Part shown: in pieces, positions 3,439 to 19,659 of the stretch
How the letters are laid out: each line of letters starts with the position of its first letter
Numbering within the stretch: the first letter of the stretch is position 1
IMG/VR virus record: IMGVR_UViG_3300023184_000599
Coordinates: 1-21,082 of that record
DNA length: 21,082 bases
Reading direction: 5' to 3' (one strand)
Origin: a virus
The notes under the pieces: model-generated
What the model was told of the DNA's origin: nothing
Databases searched by the model: none
What the model saw: the letters and a program-made list of their open reading frames with translations, nothing else
Translations under genes and position numbers: made by a program

Positions 3439-3563
3439 CCCTCGCCCAACTAATCGAGCTATTCGACGCACGGATCGTCGCCACTTACACCCCGGCACAA
3501 TACGCCAGAGAGTGCGCAAGGGCGAAGGCTGATCGGGTGCGCTGGGGAATAGGGCAGTGGTGA
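3435..3563 (+). CDS. Small hypothetical protein (42 aa)
   Basis: The ATG at 3435 overlaps the winged-helix stop (ATGA) and the stop overlaps the next GTG (GTGA). The product, MTLAQLIELFDARIVATYTP then AQYARECARAKADRVRWGIG, is amphipathic and basic at the C-terminus. No family is recognised. It lies at the left boundary of the AT-rich HNH-helicase cassette and still has the base composition of the upstream genes. Confidence 0.5.
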   Translation: MTLAQLIELFDARIVATYTPAQYARECARAKADRVRWGIGQW

Positions 3564-5392
3564 GAAGATCCTTTAACAAGTCAGAGCGTAGGGCGGCCTA
3601 CCTTTTTTCGGGCGGTCTTTCAATGCAAAGCGGAACGGAATTAGGGTCAAAATTCCATGCCGATCATATCTTGGCCCATTCACAAGGAGGCAAGACAGAC
3701 ATGAGCAATATTCAAACAATGACAGCAACCGAAAACCTAATCAAGGGAACGGGGCCACAGCTTAGATCGTGGCAAAAAGACGCGCTGCAAACCCTTGCCG
3801 TCCATGAAGGGAAGTATTTTAACCTAGAGGTTGTGTATGGCGCTGGTAAGACGCTTTTTGGCATCGAAGCCTTTAAACAAATGAGGACCACTAGCGACTT
3901 GCTAGTTATTGTTTGTCCAACTCTAGCCATTGTTGATGGCTGGGTTACTGATGCCGCCAAACACGGCATTCAACTAGACGGGAGCTGGTCTGGCAATGGA
4001 TTGTCTAGTGATTATCACGGCATTGCAATGACCTACCAATCTCTCCTAAGGAATGTCGAGGGATTACTTTTGCTGCAGAAAAAAGGCTTTCGCTTGATTG
4101 TTGCGCTTGATGAATGTCATCACAACGGGAGCGACAAGGCAACGGGCCTAGCGATTAAGACCGCGTTCCAGGATGTTCGCAGGATTTTGAATTTAAGCGG
4201 AACATTTTTTAGGCATGACGATTCTCTTATTTATGGGGGTTCGCTTGAGGGTGATTGTTACAAGACTCATTTTCAATATTCCTATCTTGACGCATTGCGA
4301 GACGACATTGTGCGTCCGTGTAAATTTGACCTGATTAATGCATACGCAATTATTGAGAGACAGGACGGTAGTCGTTTTGATATTAAATCAGAAGACTCCG
4401 AGGACGGATTGGGTTACTTGGTGTCGGCCGAATCCGTTATCGCGGAAACTATTAAAAAGCTTATTGATGAACTAAAATACAAACAGAGCATTAAACCAGA
4501 CGCAGCCGTCTTGCTTGTTGCAAAGGACATCTATCACGCGGTCGCGCTTGCAAGGGAATGGCGAAGGCAGTATGGGTCAGAAGCGTCTGTCGTAACTTCC
4601 GACGATTCAGAGGCAAGTCAGAAACTAGATATCTTTAAGCGTGGCATCGGCGTTTGCTTGATCTCTGTAAAAATGGTTAGCGAGGGAGTCAATATTCCAA
4701 GAATCTGTATTATTGGAATTTTATCAAACTGCACTACTGCTCTGTTTTTCAGGCAACTGGTAGGCAGGGGAATCAGAAAGCAAAGCAACGACGCACCTTC
4801 GATGGAATGCACTGTTATTGCGATTGGAACGGTTGAGAACAAAAAGCACGCTGAAGAAATTGAGATGGACGTTAAAATTTGTTTTGAGGAGGCGAAGGTC
4901 AAGCGAGATATGGCGGAAGTCGAAAACCGAAATCGGCAAGCCTGCACCGTTGTTTCGTCTGGGATCACTGGTGTTGAGACAATTATATCTGGTGAAAAAA
5001 TTAAAGAGAATATGGATGCTCTGATTAAAACTGTCTCGGGGCAAACCAATCTACCGTACCAAGCTGTTAACCTTGTTTTAAGCCGTGCATCAGATCTTGG
5101 CATTCTTAATGGATTCAGCGGAATTAGGCAAAACGAAGACTCTTCCGCTTACTGCGAAAGCCGGGCCGCCATAACAAAGGAAAGAGATGATCTCTCGCCA
5201 AGGATAAACTCAAGAGTTGGTTATCTGGCAAGGTTAACAAGCGAGGAGCACAGAGATATTCATAGGAGGCTTAACGCAAAAATCGGAGTGCAAGGAATCG
5301 ACGACCCAAACCTAAATTATGAAAAATTAGAGAAAAAATATTCTCTCGTTATGAGTGAAATTGCACAGGCGGAAAAATGGAGCGGTAAATGA
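3560..5392 (+). CDS. HNH endonuclease fused to SF2 (DECH) helicase
   Basis: Numbering from GTG 3560, the 610-aa product has two parts. Residues 31-63 carry an HNH nuclease: ADHILAHSQGGKTDMSN and ATENLIKG give Asp35-His36, Asn50 and Asn59 in the usual spacing, without zinc cysteines. Residues 66-410 form an SF2 helicase: Q-motif-like LRSWQKDAL, motif I GAGKT (94-98), motif II DECH (184-187), motif III SGT (213-215), motif V around SEGVNIPR, motif VI QLVGRGIR (399-406). About 200 further residues are unassigned. It may unwind DNA and cut it, as in restriction-like or defence systems, or serve replication; order and fusion are seen, role is inference. The gene is AT-rich compared with neighbours. 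It overlaps the genes on both sides by 4 nt. GTG 3557 is an alternative start. Confidence 0.82.
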   Translation: MRRSFNKSERRAAYLFSGGLSMQSGTELGSKFHADHILAHSQGGKTDMSNIQTMTATENLIKGTGPQLRSWQKDALQTLAVHEGKYFNLEVVYGAGKTLFGIEAFKQMRTTSDLLVIVCPTLAIVDGWVTDAAKHGIQLDGSWSGNGLSSDYHGIAMTYQSLLRNVEGLLLLQKKGFRLIVALDECHHNGSDKATGLAIKTAFQDVRRILNLSGTFFRHDDSLIYGGSLEGDCYKTHFQYSYLDALRDDIVRPCKFDLINAYAIIERQDGSRFDIKSEDSEDGLGYLVSAESVIAETIKKLIDELKYKQSIKPDAAVLLVAKDIYHAVALAREWRRQYGSEASVVTSDDSEASQKLDIFKRGIGVCLISVKMVSEGVNIPRICIIGILSNCTTALFFRQLVGRGIRKQSNDAPSMECTVIAIGTVENKKHAEEIEMDVKICFEEAKVKRDMAEVENRNRQACTVVSSGITGVETIISGEKIKENMDALIKTVSGQTNLPYQAVNLVLSRASDLGILNGFSGIRQNEDSSAYCESRAAITKERDDLSPRINSRVGYLARLTSEEHRDIHRRLNAKIGVQGIDDPNLNYEKLEKKYSLVMSEIAQAEKWSGK

Positions 5393-5946
5393 ACGAACAA
5401 GAGGCGGGGGTCTTGGTTGAGGCCCTGTGGAGCGCCGTCAGTCGTGGGGGCAAATCGCTAGATCAAATACCAACCATGGTAAGGAGGTTGCTTGAGACGG
5501 GCGCTTGGAAGAAAAGAACAATTCGCACTGGGAAGGTGGTCGAGCATTCTTCTTTTTATAGCTTCTTAACTTCACCGCCTCTCAGCGGATGCGGCTACGA
5601 CCCAGCCAAAATAGTTAAACTAATATCTGGGGATGTAGAGACCCTAACCTTGTGGCGGGAGGCGATGAAGGCAAAAAGAGGGCGAAAGGTCAAAGATATC
5701 GTTGACAATGTCAACGATATTAAGAGAACAGATGGCAATTCACGAATTTACACTCTTTCACGCCTAAAGGCTCAACGGCCAGATTTATTTGCTAAGATTA
5801 AGGTAGGAGAAATTTCGGCTAATTCGGCCGCCATTGAGGCAGGATTTAGAAAGATTCGGACACCCTTAATGCTGCTTCGTTCATTCTGGAAAAAAGCAAC
5901 GCAAGCCGAGCGTGACCAATTCCTATCGGAGGTCGCATGTCCGTAA
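5389..5946 (+). CDS. Putative DNA-binding partner protein (185 aa) of the HNH-helicase
   Basis: The ATG overlaps the helicase stop (ATGA). The C-terminal third, GNSRIYTLSRLKAQRPDLFA then KVGEISANSAAIEAGFRK and TPLMLLRSFWKKATQAERDQ, matches a helical segment met in many phage and cyanobacterial proteins and in ParB-like contexts ('GTSR.YtLrRL...p.l...v..GelSanaAaieAGFRk.pTp'). The N-terminal 90 residues are helical and unassigned. AT-richness and overlap link it to the helicase gene as one cassette. The gene contains a perfect 11+3+11 palindrome (5696-5720). It probably binds DNA; whether it guides, restrains or simply neighbours the HNH-helicase is unknown. Confidence 0.62.
   Translation: MNEQEAGVLVEALWSAVSRGGKSLDQIPTMVRRLLETGAWKKRTIRTGKVVEHSSFYSFLTSPPLSGCGYDPAKIVKLISGDVETLTLWREAMKAKRGRKVKDIVDNVNDIKRTDGNSRIYTLSRLKAQRPDLFAKIKVGEISANSAAIEAGFRKIRTPLMLLRSFWKKATQAERDQFLSEVACP
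5696..5720. repeat. Perfect 25-bp palindrome inside the partner gene
   Basis: ATATCGTTGAC (5696-5706), AAT, GTCAACGATAT (5710-5720): 11 of 11 arm positions match. It encodes a near-symmetric peptide IVDNVNDI, so coding constraint may contribute, but this length is unlikely by chance. It could be an operator or a centromere-like site. Confidence 0.55.
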
Positions 5947-6116
5947 AACGAAACGATTGGGCATTGAGGGTGCTGGATCGGGGGCTGGAATACCTTGCCG
6001 AAAATAATATGCGCCTGGCAAAGCAGCAGTTCAGCGTGGTGCGATTAATCCTCAAGGAGCTAGGCGATCGGGCGAAGTTTTACAGAAAGCGAGATATGGA
6101 GGCTAAGAAGAAATGA
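5937..6116 (+). CDS. Small basic helical protein (59 aa)
   Basis: The ATG at 5937 lies 10 nt inside the preceding gene, with GGAGG at 5928-5932. The end overlaps the primase-helicase start (ATGA). The product, MSVKRNDWALRVLDRGLEYL then AENNMRLAKQQFSVVRLILK, ends in KRDMEAKKK. It is basic and fully helical, likely binding nucleic acid or the replication protein encoded next. Composition returns toward that of the rest of the phage here. No family is recognised. Confidence 0.6.
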   Translation: MSVKRNDWALRVLDRGLEYLAENNMRLAKQQFSVVRLILKELGDRAKFYRKRDMEAKKK

Positions 6117-14734: not shown

Positions 14735-15610
14735 ATGGCAAACACACTCGCAACGGTCAGTAACGGAAAGTTAGTTTCACAACGGGCGCTCAGCCTGCTT
14801 GTCGAACAATTCCCTTTCCTCACGTCCGCCTACGCGGACTTTTCCGACGCTTCCGCTCGTAAGGGCGATATCGTCACCACCCACTTGATCACTGCGGCAA
14901 CCGCGGTGGCCTACAGCACTGCAAACGGATACGTCGCGGGAGACCGCACGCAGACCGATTGCATCGTGTCCCTGGATAATTTGATCCACAGCACAGTGGC
15001 CATCAATGACTCCGAAGCAGCCAGCTCCTCGATCAACTTGATCGAGCGTTTCGCCGCTTCCGCCGCACACGCGATCGGAAAATCCATGGTGGACACCTTG
15101 CTCGGCACCATCAGCGCAGCGTCCTATACCTCCACGATGACCGTGGCGGCCGACGTTCTCAGCTACCGCTCCATCGTTTCGATGGGTGTGGTGCTTGACG
15201 GAAACAAAGTGCCTAGCGGCAGCCGCTACGCAATCGTGTCTCCGAACAACAAAGCCAGCCTGCTCAACGACACATCGATCGTGGCCAACGCCCAGATCCA
15301 AGGTGATACGGTTCGCACTGGATCAGTTGGAATCGTAAACGGCATCGAAGTGTTCAGCTACCCTTCGCTCCCTTCCGCGATCAGCAAAGGCTTCGCGGCC
15401 CAACAGGAAGCGCTCTTGGTGGCGGCCCGTCTGCCCGAAGTTCCTTCGGACTACCCCGGCTCCATCGAAAACGTAACGGAACCCGTCAGCGGCCTCAGCC
15501 TGCAAATGCGCGAGTTCTATAACCCTACGCTCGGAACGCGTAATCGGTCCTACATCTTGCTCTTCGGATGTGGACGTGGATCGACAGCCTCGCTCGTTCG
15601 GTTGGTCTAA
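14735..15610 (+). CDS. Major capsid protein (HK97-fold), probable
   Basis: The 291-aa product follows the protease/scaffold and has an excellent ribosome site (AGAGGA) and a strong terminator-like hairpin after it, both typical of a highly expressed coat gene. It is rich in Ala, Ser, Val and Thr with few Cys. Segments IHSTVAINDSEAASSSINLI, HAIGKSMVDTLLGTI, and VLDGNKVPSGSRYAIVSPNN then GIVNGIEVFSYPSLP look like the E-loop/P-domain/A-domain order of HK97-type coat proteins related to P22 coat. The last part ends in GTRNRSYILLFGCGRGSTAS. It forms the icosahedral shell. The exact coat subfamily cannot be fixed. Confidence 0.75.
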   Translation: MANTLATVSNGKLVSQRALSLLVEQFPFLTSAYADFSDASARKGDIVTTHLITAATAVAYSTANGYVAGDRTQTDCIVSLDNLIHSTVAINDSEAASSSINLIERFAASAAHAIGKSMVDTLLGTISAASYTSTMTVAADVLSYRSIVSMGVVLDGNKVPSGSRYAIVSPNNKASLLNDTSIVANAQIQGDTVRTGSVGIVNGIEVFSYPSLPSAISKGFAAQQEALLVAARLPEVPSDYPGSIENVTEPVSGLSLQMREFYNPTLGTRNRSYILLFGCGRGSTASLVRLV

Positions 15611-15630: not shown

Positions 15631-15658
15631 GCCCAGCGCATCGGGGGGTGCGCTGGGC
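15631..15658 (+). terminator. Terminator-like hairpin after the capsid gene
   Basis: GCCCAGCGCA (15631-15640) and TGCGCTGGGC (15649-15658) form a perfect 10-bp GC-rich stem with loop TCGGGGGG, followed by TTTCCC. The U-tract is short, so termination may be partial, which would set coat expression above that of the glycosyltransferase block downstream. Confidence 0.75.
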
Positions 15659-15676
15659 TTTCCCAACTCAAAAACT

Positions 15677-17818
15677 ATGAATACCCCCCTTATTTCTTTA
15701 GCACTCATCGTCGGCCCCAACGAAGGGGAACTCGTCGCCCGTTTAATCAAATCCTGCGCAGGTCTATGGGACGAAGTCGTCGTCGTCTCCGCTTGCGGTA
15801 AAAATGATGCGCAGGGTGTGCGTATTTGCGCACAGGAGGCTTGTGGCGAGGCTTTAGTCTGGGGCGAGTACCAGAACTCACCCGAGCACGCTGACTGGCC
15901 TCATATTGATAATTTCGCCGCCGCCAGAAACAAAGCCTTTAACCTAGCCACAGGGAAGTACGTTGTCTGGTTCGATGCGGACGACTTGCTGGATCCCGGC
16001 CAGGCTAAACTCCACCGCGACGCCGTCCTCGTCCGTGAACAAGCCAAAGAAGGCTGGGAAATTTTAGTCACCCGGTACGACGTCCAAAATAGCGGCATGC
16101 GGGACAACCGCCGGGAACGTATCTTCCGGCGCCAACCCGACGGCACCCTCCCAGCCATCTGGGAACGAGCCGTCCATGAACGAGTCAAACCCGTCCCTGG
16201 CCTCGGCGTCGGCCTTGCCGATCACCTCGTCGTAATTCACGCACCTAACACCTGTAAGAAAAACTCCAGCGATCGCAACAAACGGATCCTCGGCACCCTC
16301 TTAGAGCATACCGGGATGAATCTTTATTATCTGGCCCAAGAGGGATACCTACGCGGCCTCTACCAAGAGAGCATCGGCCCAACGCTCCTCGGCCTCGAGC
16401 ATCCAGATCTAGGCGAGACGGAACGCTACCAGCTTTTCTGCATGGCAGGAGTCATGTGCGCGGATCACGTTAAAAAGCGCAAATACCTCGGCATGGGCAT
16501 CGCCCGTTGCCCCACCCGTCGCGAAGCCTTTGGCCACCTCGCTACCCTCCTTATCGACGAGGGCAACTTCTCCGAAGCCGTCCGCCTGCTTAATATGATC
16601 GAGACCTTACCGCGTCCCCCAGGCGTCATCTGGAATCTCGACGCGAAGTGGTACGGCCACCTACCCAAGCTACTCATCGAGCAGTGCCTGCGAGCCGTCG
16701 GCCAGACCGCGGATGCGGATCGCTGCCTACGGGAAAACTTCCGGGGGAACTGGGGCCAGATCACCATCGTGTTCAACGGCCCATTCCAAGACGCTTTCCG
16801 CCTGCAGAAATTCTTTATGGATACGTCGGACAATCCGGCCGCCATCCAGTACCTCTTTATCACCGATCCCGGCACGGAGATCGCTGGCAAACGGATCCAC
16901 ATCGTTAAAGATGCAGAGGAGGCCACTGCCGCAGCGCTCGGCAGGATCCTGCTCTTTGTAAAATGTGATAAAGACACCGCCTGCCCGCCCTTGCGCTGGG
17001 ATGTAGATCTGATTACCCAGGGAACTGTCCCGGCCGCAGCCGTCCGCCTACCCGATCCCGTAGATCGCCATGGCAAAATAGTCGTCGGCCTTACCACCAC
17101 CCCCACGCGGATAGGAAAGATCCTGCCCACCATCCAGAGTCTGCTGGCTCAGTCACGCCCAGCCGATCGCATCATTCTTTCCGTCCCAGAAAAACTAGCC
17201 CGCACAGGCGAACGCTTTGGGGATATCCCCGCCGAGCTCCAAGCCCTAGCCGATTTCGGTAAATTAGAAATTAACCGAACTTTAGACCACGGCCCCGCCA
17301 CCAAGTTTATCGGTGCGATGGCGGCCGAGCAGGATCCCACCGCTCAGATCGTCTGGTGCGATGACGATATTCTCTACGGTCCAACAATGTTGCAGGTGCT
17401 CGCCGACGAACAAAACAAAACGCAAAAAGCGGCGCTCGGCATCTGTGGCTTTTTTATGACAGGCTCCACAGGCTACGCCATCGCACCCGACCACCTCGGC
17501 CACGCCGAGATCCTCGAGGGCTTTGCTGGCGTCATCTGTCGGCGATGCGATATGCCCAGCGCAGATCTCTGGCCTGCGATGAGTCCTAAGGAGTTTGCCG
17601 GGCTCGACGCGGTGGGCCGTGCCCACTTCCTTGCGGACGACTTTGTTATGAGTAAGGCACTACAAAAAAATGGAATCAAAACACTTGTCTGTAATACGCC
17701 CGACTTCTCGCGCTCAGGCGGGATCCGTATCCGTCCAGAAGGGCTGGGGGCCGATGCCTTACAAAATAATAAAGCCACTGGGGGCAATCTGGCGGCATAC
17801 GCCTTGCTGAAGGGATGA
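15677..17818 (+). CDS. Bifunctional glycosyltransferase (two GT-A domains)
   Basis: From ATG 15677 the protein has 713 aa. Domain one (about 4-200) is GT2-like: ISLALIVGPNEGELVARLIK, then NFAAARNKAFNLATG and WFDADDLLDP with the metal-binding Asp-Ala-Asp at 100-102. A helical middle (about 200-360) with repeated LL..G pairs looks TPR-like. Domain two (about 467-700) starts IVVGLTTTPTRIGKILPTIQ and has WCDDDILYG (Asp562-564) and an SGGIRIRPEG region. It would transfer sugars from nucleotide-sugar donors to capsid, tail or host-surface acceptors. In-frame codons upstream to 15629 lie in the hairpin, so ATG 15677 is used. Stop overlaps the next start (ATGA). Confidence 0.82.
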   Translation: MNTPLISLALIVGPNEGELVARLIKSCAGLWDEVVVVSACGKNDAQGVRICAQEACGEALVWGEYQNSPEHADWPHIDNFAAARNKAFNLATGKYVVWFDADDLLDPGQAKLHRDAVLVREQAKEGWEILVTRYDVQNSGMRDNRRERIFRRQPDGTLPAIWERAVHERVKPVPGLGVGLADHLVVIHAPNTCKKNSSDRNKRILGTLLEHTGMNLYYLAQEGYLRGLYQESIGPTLLGLEHPDLGETERYQLFCMAGVMCADHVKKRKYLGMGIARCPTRREAFGHLATLLIDEGNFSEAVRLLNMIETLPRPPGVIWNLDAKWYGHLPKLLIEQCLRAVGQTADADRCLRENFRGNWGQITIVFNGPFQDAFRLQKFFMDTSDNPAAIQYLFITDPGTEIAGKRIHIVKDAEEATAAALGRILLFVKCDKDTACPPLRWDVDLITQGTVPAAAVRLPDPVDRHGKIVVGLTTTPTRIGKILPTIQSLLAQSRPADRIILSVPEKLARTGERFGDIPAELQALADFGKLEINRTLDHGPATKFIGAMAAEQDPTAQIVWCDDDILYGPTMLQVLADEQNKTQKAALGICGFFMTGSTGYAIAPDHLGHAEILEGFAGVICRRCDMPSADLWPAMSPKEFAGLDAVGRAHFLADDFVMSKALQKNGIKTLVCNTPDFSRSGGIRIRPEGLGADALQNNKATGGNLAAYALLKG

Positions 17819-18489
17819 ACAAAACTCTCACACTCTCCGGCTACAACAGGCCGGACTATTTTGCCACCACTTTAAAAGCCCTAGCCAAGTGCGATGGGAT
17901 TAGTGAGTACGACGTCGTCGTCGTTCTCGATCCATCCGATAAAACTCCAGAGATAGCAGAATTTTGTAAAGGGCAGGGAGTGCAGGCCATGGTCATGCTC
18001 GATCGTCTTGGCTGCGGCGCCATGATCCGCTACTGCATGGCCTTGGGCTTTAGGGTTAGCGATTACCACATCCACCTTGAAGACGATACCGTGCCCAGCC
18101 CAGACCTCCTACGCTGGTTTGAGTGGGCGCGGACACATGCCCCAAAGCAGACTCTTACAATATCTGGTTACAACCAACACGGGGACGGGGCAGATTCTGG
18201 CGTTGCAGGATTCCGCCACTGGTTCACCCCCTGGGGCTGGGCTACGTGGAAAAGCTCATGGGAAAAATATCTTCTACCTAACTGGGACAATTCTTTCTGG
18301 GATGGCGGTATCCAGCGCGTACGCGAAAACATGGGCGACGGGGAGATCTTCCCCAGGGTAAGTAGGATCCAGAATATCGGCGCCACCCGCGGAGCCTTTT
18401 GTCCTAGCCCGGAATTTCACCAGGAGAACCATCACGCCACCCGCGTGGCCACACAATTAGATAAGCAAACAAAATGGATCCTCACCTAG
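17815..18489 (+). CDS. Glycosyltransferase, GT-A fold, second in block
   Basis: This 224-aa protein starts MNKTLTLSGYNRPDYFATTL, a nucleotide-sugar binding strand and 'R-P-x-Y' turn usual in GT2/GNT1-like enzymes. IHLEDDTVPSPDLLRWFEWA carries the DXD-like metal site (Glu-Asp-Asp 89-91). FRHWFTPWGWATWKSSWEKY is the aromatic acceptor-side motif common to related phage and bacterial sugar transferases. Length is short but complete for one catalytic domain. It overlaps the bifunctional transferase by 4 nt and the methyltransferase by 16 nt, so the three are co-translated and probably modify the same acceptor. Confidence 0.8.
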   Translation: MNKTLTLSGYNRPDYFATTLKALAKCDGISEYDVVVVLDPSDKTPEIAEFCKGQGVQAMVMLDRLGCGAMIRYCMALGFRVSDYHIHLEDDTVPSPDLLRWFEWARTHAPKQTLTISGYNQHGDGADSGVAGFRHWFTPWGWATWKSSWEKYLLPNWDNSFWDGGIQRVRENMGDGEIFPRVSRIQNIGATRGAFCPSPEFHQENHHATRVATQLDKQTKWILT

Positions 18490-19037
18490 CGCACTTACAC
18501 GCTGGGAACGAATTTGGGGAGGATTGGTTTAGCTTTGCTGGAGTCTACCGCAGGATGGTGGCGGCCTGTCCGGCCGACGGCAAGATCGTCGAGGTAGGAA
18601 GCTGGAAAGGCAGGTCTACAGCTTTCCTGCTTGTGGAGGCATGGAACAAATCCCCACGGATAGAAATCTACGCCGTCGATACTTGGGAAGGGAGCGAGGA
18701 ACACGCAGGCGAAGAGTGCATAAAAAACGGCACCCTATACCAAGAGTTTCTAGCTAATGTAAAACCCGTCTCCCGTCAGCTTGTTCCCTTACGCATGCCT
18801 AGTTTAAAAGGTGCTAACTTCTTTCCCGATCAATCGCTCGACTCAGTCTTTATCGATGCCGCCCACGACTACGAAAACGTGAAGGCGGATATCTTGGCCT
18901 GGCTGCCTAAAGTAAAAACAGGCGGTCTTATCGGCGGGCACGATTACGGATGCGGCTGGGCCGGAGTAGATCTAGCCGTCCAACAAACCATGGGAGAAGT
19001 CGAGGCACTAGAAAACTCCTGGCTTAAGCAGCTCTAG
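18474..19037 (+). CDS. Class I SAM-dependent methyltransferase (Methyltransf_24-like)
   Basis: The 187-aa product has motif I VEVGSWKGRSTAFL (residues 39-52), an acidic motif II end IYAVDTWEGSEEH with Asp69, and a C-terminal core SLDSVFIDAAHDYENVKADI with LPKVKTGGLIGGHDYG. This is the pattern of Methyltransf_24 family enzymes found next to sugar transferases, often methylating sugars. No DNA-methyltransferase signature (N/DPPY) is present. It is last in the three-gene modification block. Its stop shares the CTAG at 19034-19037 with the opposite-strand gene. The likely role is capping or decorating a glycan. Confidence 0.8.
   Translation: MDPHLAHLHAGNEFGEDWFSFAGVYRRMVAACPADGKIVEVGSWKGRSTAFLLVEAWNKSPRIEIYAVDTWEGSEEHAGEECIKNGTLYQEFLANVKPVSRQLVPLRMPSLKGANFFPDQSLDSVFIDAAHDYENVKADILAWLPKVKTGGLIGGHDYGCGWAGVDLAVQQTMGEVEALENSWLKQL
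19034..19037. other. CTAG: shared stop codons of two convergent genes
   Basis: The palindrome CTAG supplies TAG to the methyltransferase (19035-19037, plus strand) and TAG to the exported MORN-like gene (19036-19034, minus strand), so the two genes end on the same four bases with no space for a terminator between them. Confidence 0.85.
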
Positions 19038-19294
19038 TTTCTCACCCCGTTGGAGTAGCTAAACTGGGAAAACAGTTTGTTATTTACGATCACCGTCACA
19101 GGCCCATCGAGCACTCCGTCCAAATAAGTAATCTCCGCCCGCCAGTTATCCTCGGCTACAAACGCCAACCCAGAAAACGGCTTCCCCTTCAAACACCACT
19201 TTCCGTTGGCTAGGCTTAGCCGCTTTTCACTTACCGCATCAGCCCCAAGCGCCACGCTACAAATCAAAACAAAGATAAAAAACCACTTAGCCAT
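19034..19294 (-). CDS. Exported MORN-like protein (moron gene)
   Basis: This 86-aa leftward protein is the only complete minus-strand gene I support. The N-terminus MAKWFFIFVLICSVALGADA is a signal peptide with likely cleavage after ALG or ADA; no lipobox is seen. The rest, NGKWCLKGKPFSGLAFVAED then ITYLDGVLDGPVTVIVNNKL and SQFSYSNGVRN, resembles MORN/YwqK-like repeats ('kG.p.sG....y.nG...G'). A plausible promoter lies just upstream (19301-19328). A lone antisense gene with its own promoter in a rightward morphogenesis operon is the usual look of a moron expressed from the prophage. Role may be host-envelope conversion or exclusion; that is inference. Confidence 0.7.
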   Translation of the reverse strand: MAKWFFIFVLICSVALGADAVSEKRLSLANGKWCLKGKPFSGLAFVAEDNWRAEITYLDGVLDGPVTVIVNNKLFSQFSYSNGVRN

Positions 19295-19350: not shown

Positions 19351-19659
19351 GTGACCGAACTCCAAACCCTTATGACCACAGGCGTGGCCGATATGATCTC
19401 CGCCCTACCCACCACTGCCACCATCTCCGGCCTAGCCGTCCAAGGCGTCTACACCCCCAGCGAACAGACCGCAGAGCTTGGCATGGGCGGATTTGTGAAT
19501 CCGCAAAACGCGGAGTTTGTTTGTCTTACCAGCGCCGTCAGCCTGCCGTCCCTCCTTAGCATCGTCACCGTCGGCGGGGCCGCCAAGCGCCTTACCGGAG
19601 TTCAAGTGGATCAAGGAATCTCCACCCTTATGCTGGCCGATCCAGAGGACGTGCGATGA
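19351..19659 (+). CDS. Head-tail joining protein, probable
   Basis: A GTG at 19351 preceded by AAGGGG gives a 102-aa protein beginning TELQTLMTTGVADMISALPT. The middle (GVYTPSEQTAELGMGGFVNP) and end (GVQVDQGISTLMLADPEDVR) are beta-rich, as in small head-tail connectors of lambda FII or similar families. It is the first rightward gene after the accessory block and overlaps the next gene by 4 nt (ATGA). Synteny, size and composition support a connector; sequence identity to a named family is not certain. Confidence 0.55.
   Translation: MTELQTLMTTGVADMISALPTTATISGLAVQGVYTPSEQTAELGMGGFVNPQNAEFVCLTSAVSLPSLLSIVTVGGAAKRLTGVQVDQGISTLMLADPEDVR

Follow-up and report, generated by a model that had tools for sequence, protein, structure and literature searches.

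Directly behind the gene for the major capsid protein (MCP), the virus record IMGVR_UViG_3300023184_000599 carries three overlapping genes for sugar-modifying enzymes. These encode GT1, a two-domain glycosyltransferase, GT2, a second glycosyltransferase, and MT, an S-adenosylmethionine (SAM) methyltransferase. The whole 21,082-base record was analyzed and is called the window; all positions follow its numbering. We consider it probable, at roughly two chances in three, that the three genes form a late-operon cassette that glycosylates a virion protein in the cytoplasm of the infected cell. The capsid protein would be the most likely glycan acceptor, because of the gene adjacency and the likeness of GT1, with its TPR segment, to GmaR. 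In support of this reading, the closest characterized relatives of the GT1 front half are protein and peptide glycosyltransferases with TPR-type domains. New here are the lead enzyme GT1, the exchange of its rear half together with the following genes, and a covarying RNA hairpin with a matching run of C residues at the GT1 start.

Domain architecture of GT1

GT1 was analyzed with a profile built from 24 homologues and with an AlphaFold model (mean predicted local distance difference test score, pLDDT, 79). A first-pass annotation made from the sequence had described two GT-A domains with separate acidic sites around a TPR-like middle, and both profile and fold comparisons bore this out, while adding the remnant of a further GT-A domain. 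The protein reads as GT-A, TPR, decayed GT-A, and newer GT-A, in that order (Table 1). Pfam Glycos_transf_2 matched amino acids 79-109 (1.2e-9), and a second glycosyltransferase match at amino acids 558-677 was sub-threshold. Acidic residues at D100/D102/D103, D562-D564, and D654-D655 were invariant in the 24 homologues.

With the homologue profile, amino acids 4-210 matched the Listeria flagellin GlcNAc-transferase GmaR (22ao, 2.5e-9). The best Foldseek matches of the model were SunS and ThuS (3.6e-13), and a second structural alignment of domain 1 returned the same enzymes (SunS, Z 16.3, root mean square deviation (rmsd) 3.0 over 170 residues; ThuS, Z 17.8). By analogy to these relatives, domain 1 is proposed to be an initiating protein glycosyltransferase. 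Consensus and designed TPR proteins matched amino acids 215-326, where the model has helical hairpins, and the TPR part aligned structurally with the TPRs of SPINDLY and OGT (Z ~14). This segment is proposed to recognize the acceptor, a role modelled on the recognition of flagellin proposed for the TPR domain of GmaR (PMC9638930).

The linker that follows (amino acids ~359-455) aligned collinearly with the second GT-A domain of more distant homologues (clade B, below) at an hhalign probability of 76% (E 2e-5, 33% identity), against at most 2.5% for control comparisons. It lacks the acidic GSDDWD motif of that domain. The rear domain resembles KfiA, the K5 GlcNAc-transferase (Z 17.1, rmsd 3.1, 182 residues, 26% identity), and heparosan synthase B matched amino acids 509-587 with the homologue profile (1e-3). 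By analogy, this domain is proposed to add a second sugar.

GT2 and MT

GT2 matched Pfam GNT-I just below the curated cut-off (8.5e-6) and the GnT-I structures 2am3 and 1fo8 in the PDB (5e-5). The matching region spans amino acids 86-190 and includes an invariant E89-D90-D91 (EDD). MT belongs to Pfam Methyltransf_24 (6.1e-19) and is proposed, by analogy, to O-methylate a sugar. It also matches PHROG 2675, labelled DNA methyltransferase, covering only part of that profile. By hydropathy, GT1, GT2, and MT each have zero transmembrane segments.

A homologue of GT2 occurs in Microbacterium phage Magritte (L289:2393-5335), next to genes for a UDP-glucose dehydrogenase and another glycosyltransferase, just upstream of terminase and portal. 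This locus is a candidate for a second actinophage virion-glycosylation locus.

GT1 is constantly associated with the capsid gene in two clades

No homologue of GT1 was found among INPHARED phage records, and dozens of IMG/VR contigs contained one. As full-length homologues recur in these contigs and changes are concentrated at third codon positions, the trio is not a chance assembly of reading frames. Related loci were counted when they had a distinct capsid gene, and were grouped by capsid identity into clade A (>50%), clade B (~47%), and clade C (27%, P8625 type). In clade A, GT1 lay directly behind the MCP gene in 74/74 loci (72/72 with at least 300 nucleotides of downstream sequence, and two shorter ones), usually starting 63-70 nucleotides past the MCP stop. 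Part of these loci were found via GT1 itself; those found via the capsid gene show the same adjacency. In clade B, a homologue of the GT1 front half stood one gene after MCP in all 65 loci with enough downstream sequence; in the first set of these loci it lay ~380 nucleotides downstream, behind an Hc1-like gene. None of the 28 clade C loci had a GT1 homologue behind MCP.

The slot after GT1 is more variable, with glycosyltransferases, SAM methyltransferases, and NAD (sugar) epimerases in some 15-20 combinations, a count that includes some noise from the calling of open reading frames (ORFs). Contents included GT2 with MT, GT2 with another SAM methyltransferase, an FkbM-type methyltransferase alone, a GT34-like enzyme, Gly_transf_sug, and a GT7-like domain fused to a sugar epimerase. 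In clade B, some slots combined a methyltransferase with a heptosyltransferase-like protein, and others had a split transketolase-like pair along with a radical SAM enzyme. The trio is thus not a fixed unit beside capsid genes: GT1 is constant in clades A and B, and GT2 and MT turned out to be part of a variable cassette.

Three clade B loci (L070:2677-5658, L247:9569-12461, L233:11338-12498) carry the split transketolase/E1-like thiamine pyrophosphate (TPP) pair with the radical SAM enzyme, an unusual set for small phages. These TPP and radical SAM enzymes perhaps make an uncommon sugar.

The rear half of GT1 is exchanged with the genes that follow

Comparison of two related loci, L021 and L034, revealed steps in nucleotide identity. 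Across MCP and the front half of GT1, identity was mostly 45-67% (one 150-nucleotide bin reached 80%), while it was 73-91% in the stretch that begins near codon 440 of GT1 and takes in GT2 and MT. It fell again to 46-63% from the Hc1-like gene (hc1) onward, making hc1 the downstream boundary of the exchangeable cassette. The pair L012 and L013 has the same inner edge within GT1. In several pairs, the rear half of GT1, GT2, and MT have been exchanged as one block, and the front half stays with the head genes.

A covarying hairpin precedes GT1

The 66 nucleotides between MCP and GT1 hold a hairpin with a G-run loop (GCCCAGCGCA-TCGGGGGG-TGCGCTGGGC). All 10 of its 10 stem pairs were formed in each of 38 distinct sequences, and 9 of the pairs had compensatory changes, with far lower values in controls. 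When the pairing partner was slid by one to three columns, whole-structure pairing dropped from 97% to about half. RNAalifold supports the hairpin, a separate folding test gave a z-score of -3.4, and an Rfam search of the hairpin returned no match. Five G residues in the loop were invariant, and the sixth was absent in 1 of 45 distinct loci. The motif occurs once per clade A locus, in the gap between MCP and GT1, except in L026, which has a second copy. In clades B and C, too, the MCP gene tends to be followed by a strong hairpin, but one lacking the G-run loop.

The first-pass annotation had placed a probable partial terminator here. The hairpin is real, but it covaries, is followed by TTTCCCAAC rather than a T-tract, and is not among the sites listed by a terminator scan, so that this label does not fit.

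Just past the GT1 start, codons 3-5 contain a C-run complementary to the G-run loop. Such a run, five or six C residues long, was present at the GT1 start in 43/45 distinct loci, across different peptides. The expected frequency was 19% by synonymous resampling and 0.4% in background windows; as the sequences are related, these counts are not independent, and the conserved C-run is a lead rather than proof. In the alignment, 91% of the loop and C-run cells were paired, with no compensatory changes there, as both sides hardly vary. A pseudoknot between the loop and the C-run over the GT1 start site is possible, and hairpin and C-run together (15631-15689) may represent a novel cis-acting RNA element.

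Proposed glycosylation of a virion protein and its alternatives

By the proposed mechanism, the N-terminal GT-A domain of GT1, guided by the TPR segment, would transfer the first sugar from a nucleotide sugar to a side chain of a freshly synthesized virion protein, for which the capsid protein is the leading candidate. By analogy with GmaR, this side chain would be Ser or Thr. The C-terminal KfiA-like domain and then GT2 would lengthen the glycan, which MT would O-methylate. Swapping the rear half and the following genes would alter the glycan, while the acceptor-recognizing front half would stay with the capsid gene. The hairpin, whose G-run loop could pair with the C-run, would keep GT1 expression well below that of the capsid protein.

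A more ambitious version of this model, a modular capsid glyco-code, combines a front half that co-evolves with the capsid, a swapped block that writes the glycan, and a new RNA element that sets the enzyme dose. We put this forward tentatively, as more likely wrong than right. Over 53 loci, MCP identity correlated with that of the GT1 front half at r 0.71 and with that of the rear half at r 0.37, and co-evolution of the front half with MCP is only suggested by these values.

Several points weigh against the cassette acting on virion proteins or against its modular form. With 22 non-redundant loci, the two correlations were 0.60 (front) and 0.43 (rear), and the subsampling interval of their difference included zero; physical linkage would also yield the same trend between front half and MCP. 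Because mycobacteriophage glycosyltransferases are not profile-homologous to GT1 or GT2, their function is transferred by analogy. GT-A folds that act on teichoic acids and polysaccharides resemble GT1 as well, and some clade B cassettes encode a heptosyltransferase-like protein (a weak match), as in lipopolysaccharide (LPS)-modifying loci. The MCP model (pLDDT 43) is too poor for mapping Ser/Thr sites. The Ser plus Thr content of MCP, at 0.20 and 0.19 in the clades with glycosyltransferases against 0.17, is only slightly higher and not informative.

The main rival is that the enzymes modify the LPS or capsule of the host, either late in infection or during lysogeny, and so block readsorption or superinfection. 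Glycos_transf_2 enzymes, epimerases, and the heptosyltransferase-like protein are of kinds typically encoded in polysaccharide loci, and the KfiA-like rear domain and the fold matches TarS, TarP, RmlT, and WrtF act on polymers. A tyrosine integrase was present in 20/25 large related contigs, which suggests that the phage group is largely temperate. Yet the trio has no membrane anchor, the annotated cassette neighbours include no flippase or GtrA/GtrB-like gene, and GT1 is part of the head operon, immediately after MCP, with its TPR segment and its likeness to GmaR and SunS. Nor does the locus resemble gtrABC-type O-antigen conversion, as the genes around it encode head proteins and soluble enzymes. 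We regard this rival as unlikely. The original suggestion of virion-protein decoration rather than O-antigen conversion is thus strengthened by the lack of a membrane segment in GT1, by its protein-glycosylating relatives, and by capsid adjacency in two clades, while the integrases leave lysogenic effects on the host surface as a possibility.

A still less probable target is a non-structural protein, either a host protein that the phage would inactivate or a glycocin-like phage peptide. The best structural matches, SunS and ThuS, are peptide S-glycosyltransferases, and a prophage-encoded glycocin is known (PMC6391423). Against this, adjacency to the capsid genes is fixed, and no genes for a precursor peptide, transporter, or immunity protein were noticed in the slot among the ORFs examined. 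Finally, glycosylation of modified bases in the phage genome is very improbable because PF00303 genes (thymidylate synthase/hydroxymethylase-type) were absent from 25 large relatives in a search that detected its controls, although some relatives may be incomplete and other base-modifying families were not searched; DNA-glycosylating phage glycosyltransferases do exist (Pyle 2024, as cited in PMC12619734) and PHROG 2675 carries a DNA methyltransferase label, but the family and partial profile coverage of MT and the late-operon position argue otherwise.

If a virion protein is indeed the target, a group whose sampled genomes all keep a glycosyltransferase gene right after the capsid gene and exchange the decorating enzymes would suggest that the trait is common, and subject to diversifying pressure, beyond actinobacterial hosts. 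Knowledge of phage virion glycosylation rests mainly on mycobacteriophages, and the present group is known only from metagenomes. The cassette would also offer compact soluble protein glycosyltransferases and a testable RNA element for the capsid-to-enzyme ratio.

Relation to known glycosylation systems

The layout had been thought unusual, but has a precedent: in Cluster O mycobacteriophages, genes for one O-methyltransferase and three glycosyltransferases sit between portal and protease (PMC4351075). Their capsid peptides were under-recovered, and modification was proposed (PMC4351075). Virions of Corndog and Che8 are reported to be glycosylated (PMC4351075, PMC12363180), and PMC12363180, citing Freeman 2023, reports that glycosylation of the capsid requires gp38 in Corndog and gp110 in Che8. 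The window's system would work like this mycobacteriophage virion glycosylation, and self-decoration as such is already known.

Like the window, Cluster O phages (Corndog gp35-gp38, Firecracker gp33-36, Catdawg gp33-36; genes were compared in Firecracker and Catdawg) combine Methyltransf_24 with several glycosyltransferases within the head-gene operon. Their cassette lies between portal and protease rather than behind MCP, and has three separate small glycosyltransferases (one GT25-like) without a GT-A/TPR/GT-A enzyme. Che8 gp108-gp110 also combine Methyltransf_24 with glycosyltransferases, and gp108 fuses a GT2-type domain to Methyltransf_24, but these genes are at the right end of the genome record. 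The window thus shares with these systems the tie of glycosyltransferase genes to head genes and the Methyltransf_24 companion, but not the glycosyltransferases themselves: profile comparison of the GT1 front half, the GT1 rear half, and GT2 with Che8 gp108-110 and Firecracker gp33-36 gave no match.

The acceptor of Listeria GmaR is flagellin (PMC9638930). Like GT1, GmaR is cytoplasmic, has an N-terminal glycosyltransferase domain followed by TPRs, and shows detectable sequence similarity; it ends in an antirepressor domain, whereas in GT1 the TPRs are followed by the GT-A remnant and the KfiA-like domain. SunS and ThuS share the combination of GT-A and helical domain, but have a single glycosyltransferase domain and modify small bacteriocins, and no precursor peptide was noticed in the window. 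KfiA and heparosan synthase B share the fold of the GT1 rear domain, but make capsular polysaccharide, whereas the GT1 domain is fused to a front half resembling protein glycosyltransferases. GnT-I (GT13) is a eukaryotic Golgi membrane enzyme, while GT2 is soluble and short.

Gene arrangement and surroundings

As first annotated, three overlapping enzyme genes lie between capsid and connector genes, with ORFs that span exactly 15677-19037; the flanking genes are MCP (5') and the Hc1-like head-tail connector gene (3'). Their overlaps suggest a pattern as in a translationally coupled operon.

Table 1. Features of the glycosyltransferase locus in the window
Feature	Position	Strand	Basis or remark
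MCP gene	14735-15610	+	PHROG 283 (5e-22), PHROG 267 (7e-19), major head protein
Covarying hairpin with G-run loop	15631-15658	+	19-46 nucleotides 5' of GT1 start codon
GT1, two-domain glycosyltransferase, whole gene	15677-17818	+	ORF of 713 amino acids
C-run complementary to G-run loop, codons 3-5	15684-15689	+	Sequence
GT1 domain 1, GT-A of GmaR/SunS/ThuS type, amino acids 1-212	15677-16312	+	Profile and fold
GT1 TPR segment, amino acids 213-358	16313-16750	+	TPR profile matches, fold
GT1 linker, putative decayed GT-A remnant, amino acids ~359-455	16751-17041	+	hhalign
GT1 domain 2, KfiA-like GT-A, amino acids ~462-713	17060-17815	+	Fold and profile
GT2, GnT-I/GT13-like glycosyltransferase	17815-18489	+	ORF of 224 amino acids; 4-nucleotide overlap with GT1
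MT, Methyltransf_24 SAM methyltransferase	18474-19037	+	ORF of 187 amino acids; 16-nucleotide overlap with GT2
hc1, head closure Hc1-like gene	19351-19659	+	PHROG 82, weak match (0.02)

As a clue to the host, MCP matched only Verrucomicrobia phage P8625, with 27% identity to its P22-coat-like protein, and TerL and replication proteins match many unrelated hosts; this points weakly to a host among the Verrucomicrobia. Two scans of bacterial genome contigs with the GT1 alignment found no related loci. Weak plasmid matches, such as one to a 34-kb Isosphaeraceae plasmid, were rejected as not phage-like.

Three relatives (L003, L004, and L010) have an MCP 97-98% identical to that of the window and a different terminase (29% identity), which we read as replacement of the packaging module by exchange. 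A minus-strand ORF of 86 amino acids (19034-19294) lies between MT and hc1; its N-terminus is hydrophobic, it is conserved in none but the nearest relatives, and it looks like a moron. At 3500-6000, the window contains a low-GC island (0.44-0.47 versus 0.55) with a 611-amino-acid HNH and ResIII helicase gene, which was probably acquired.

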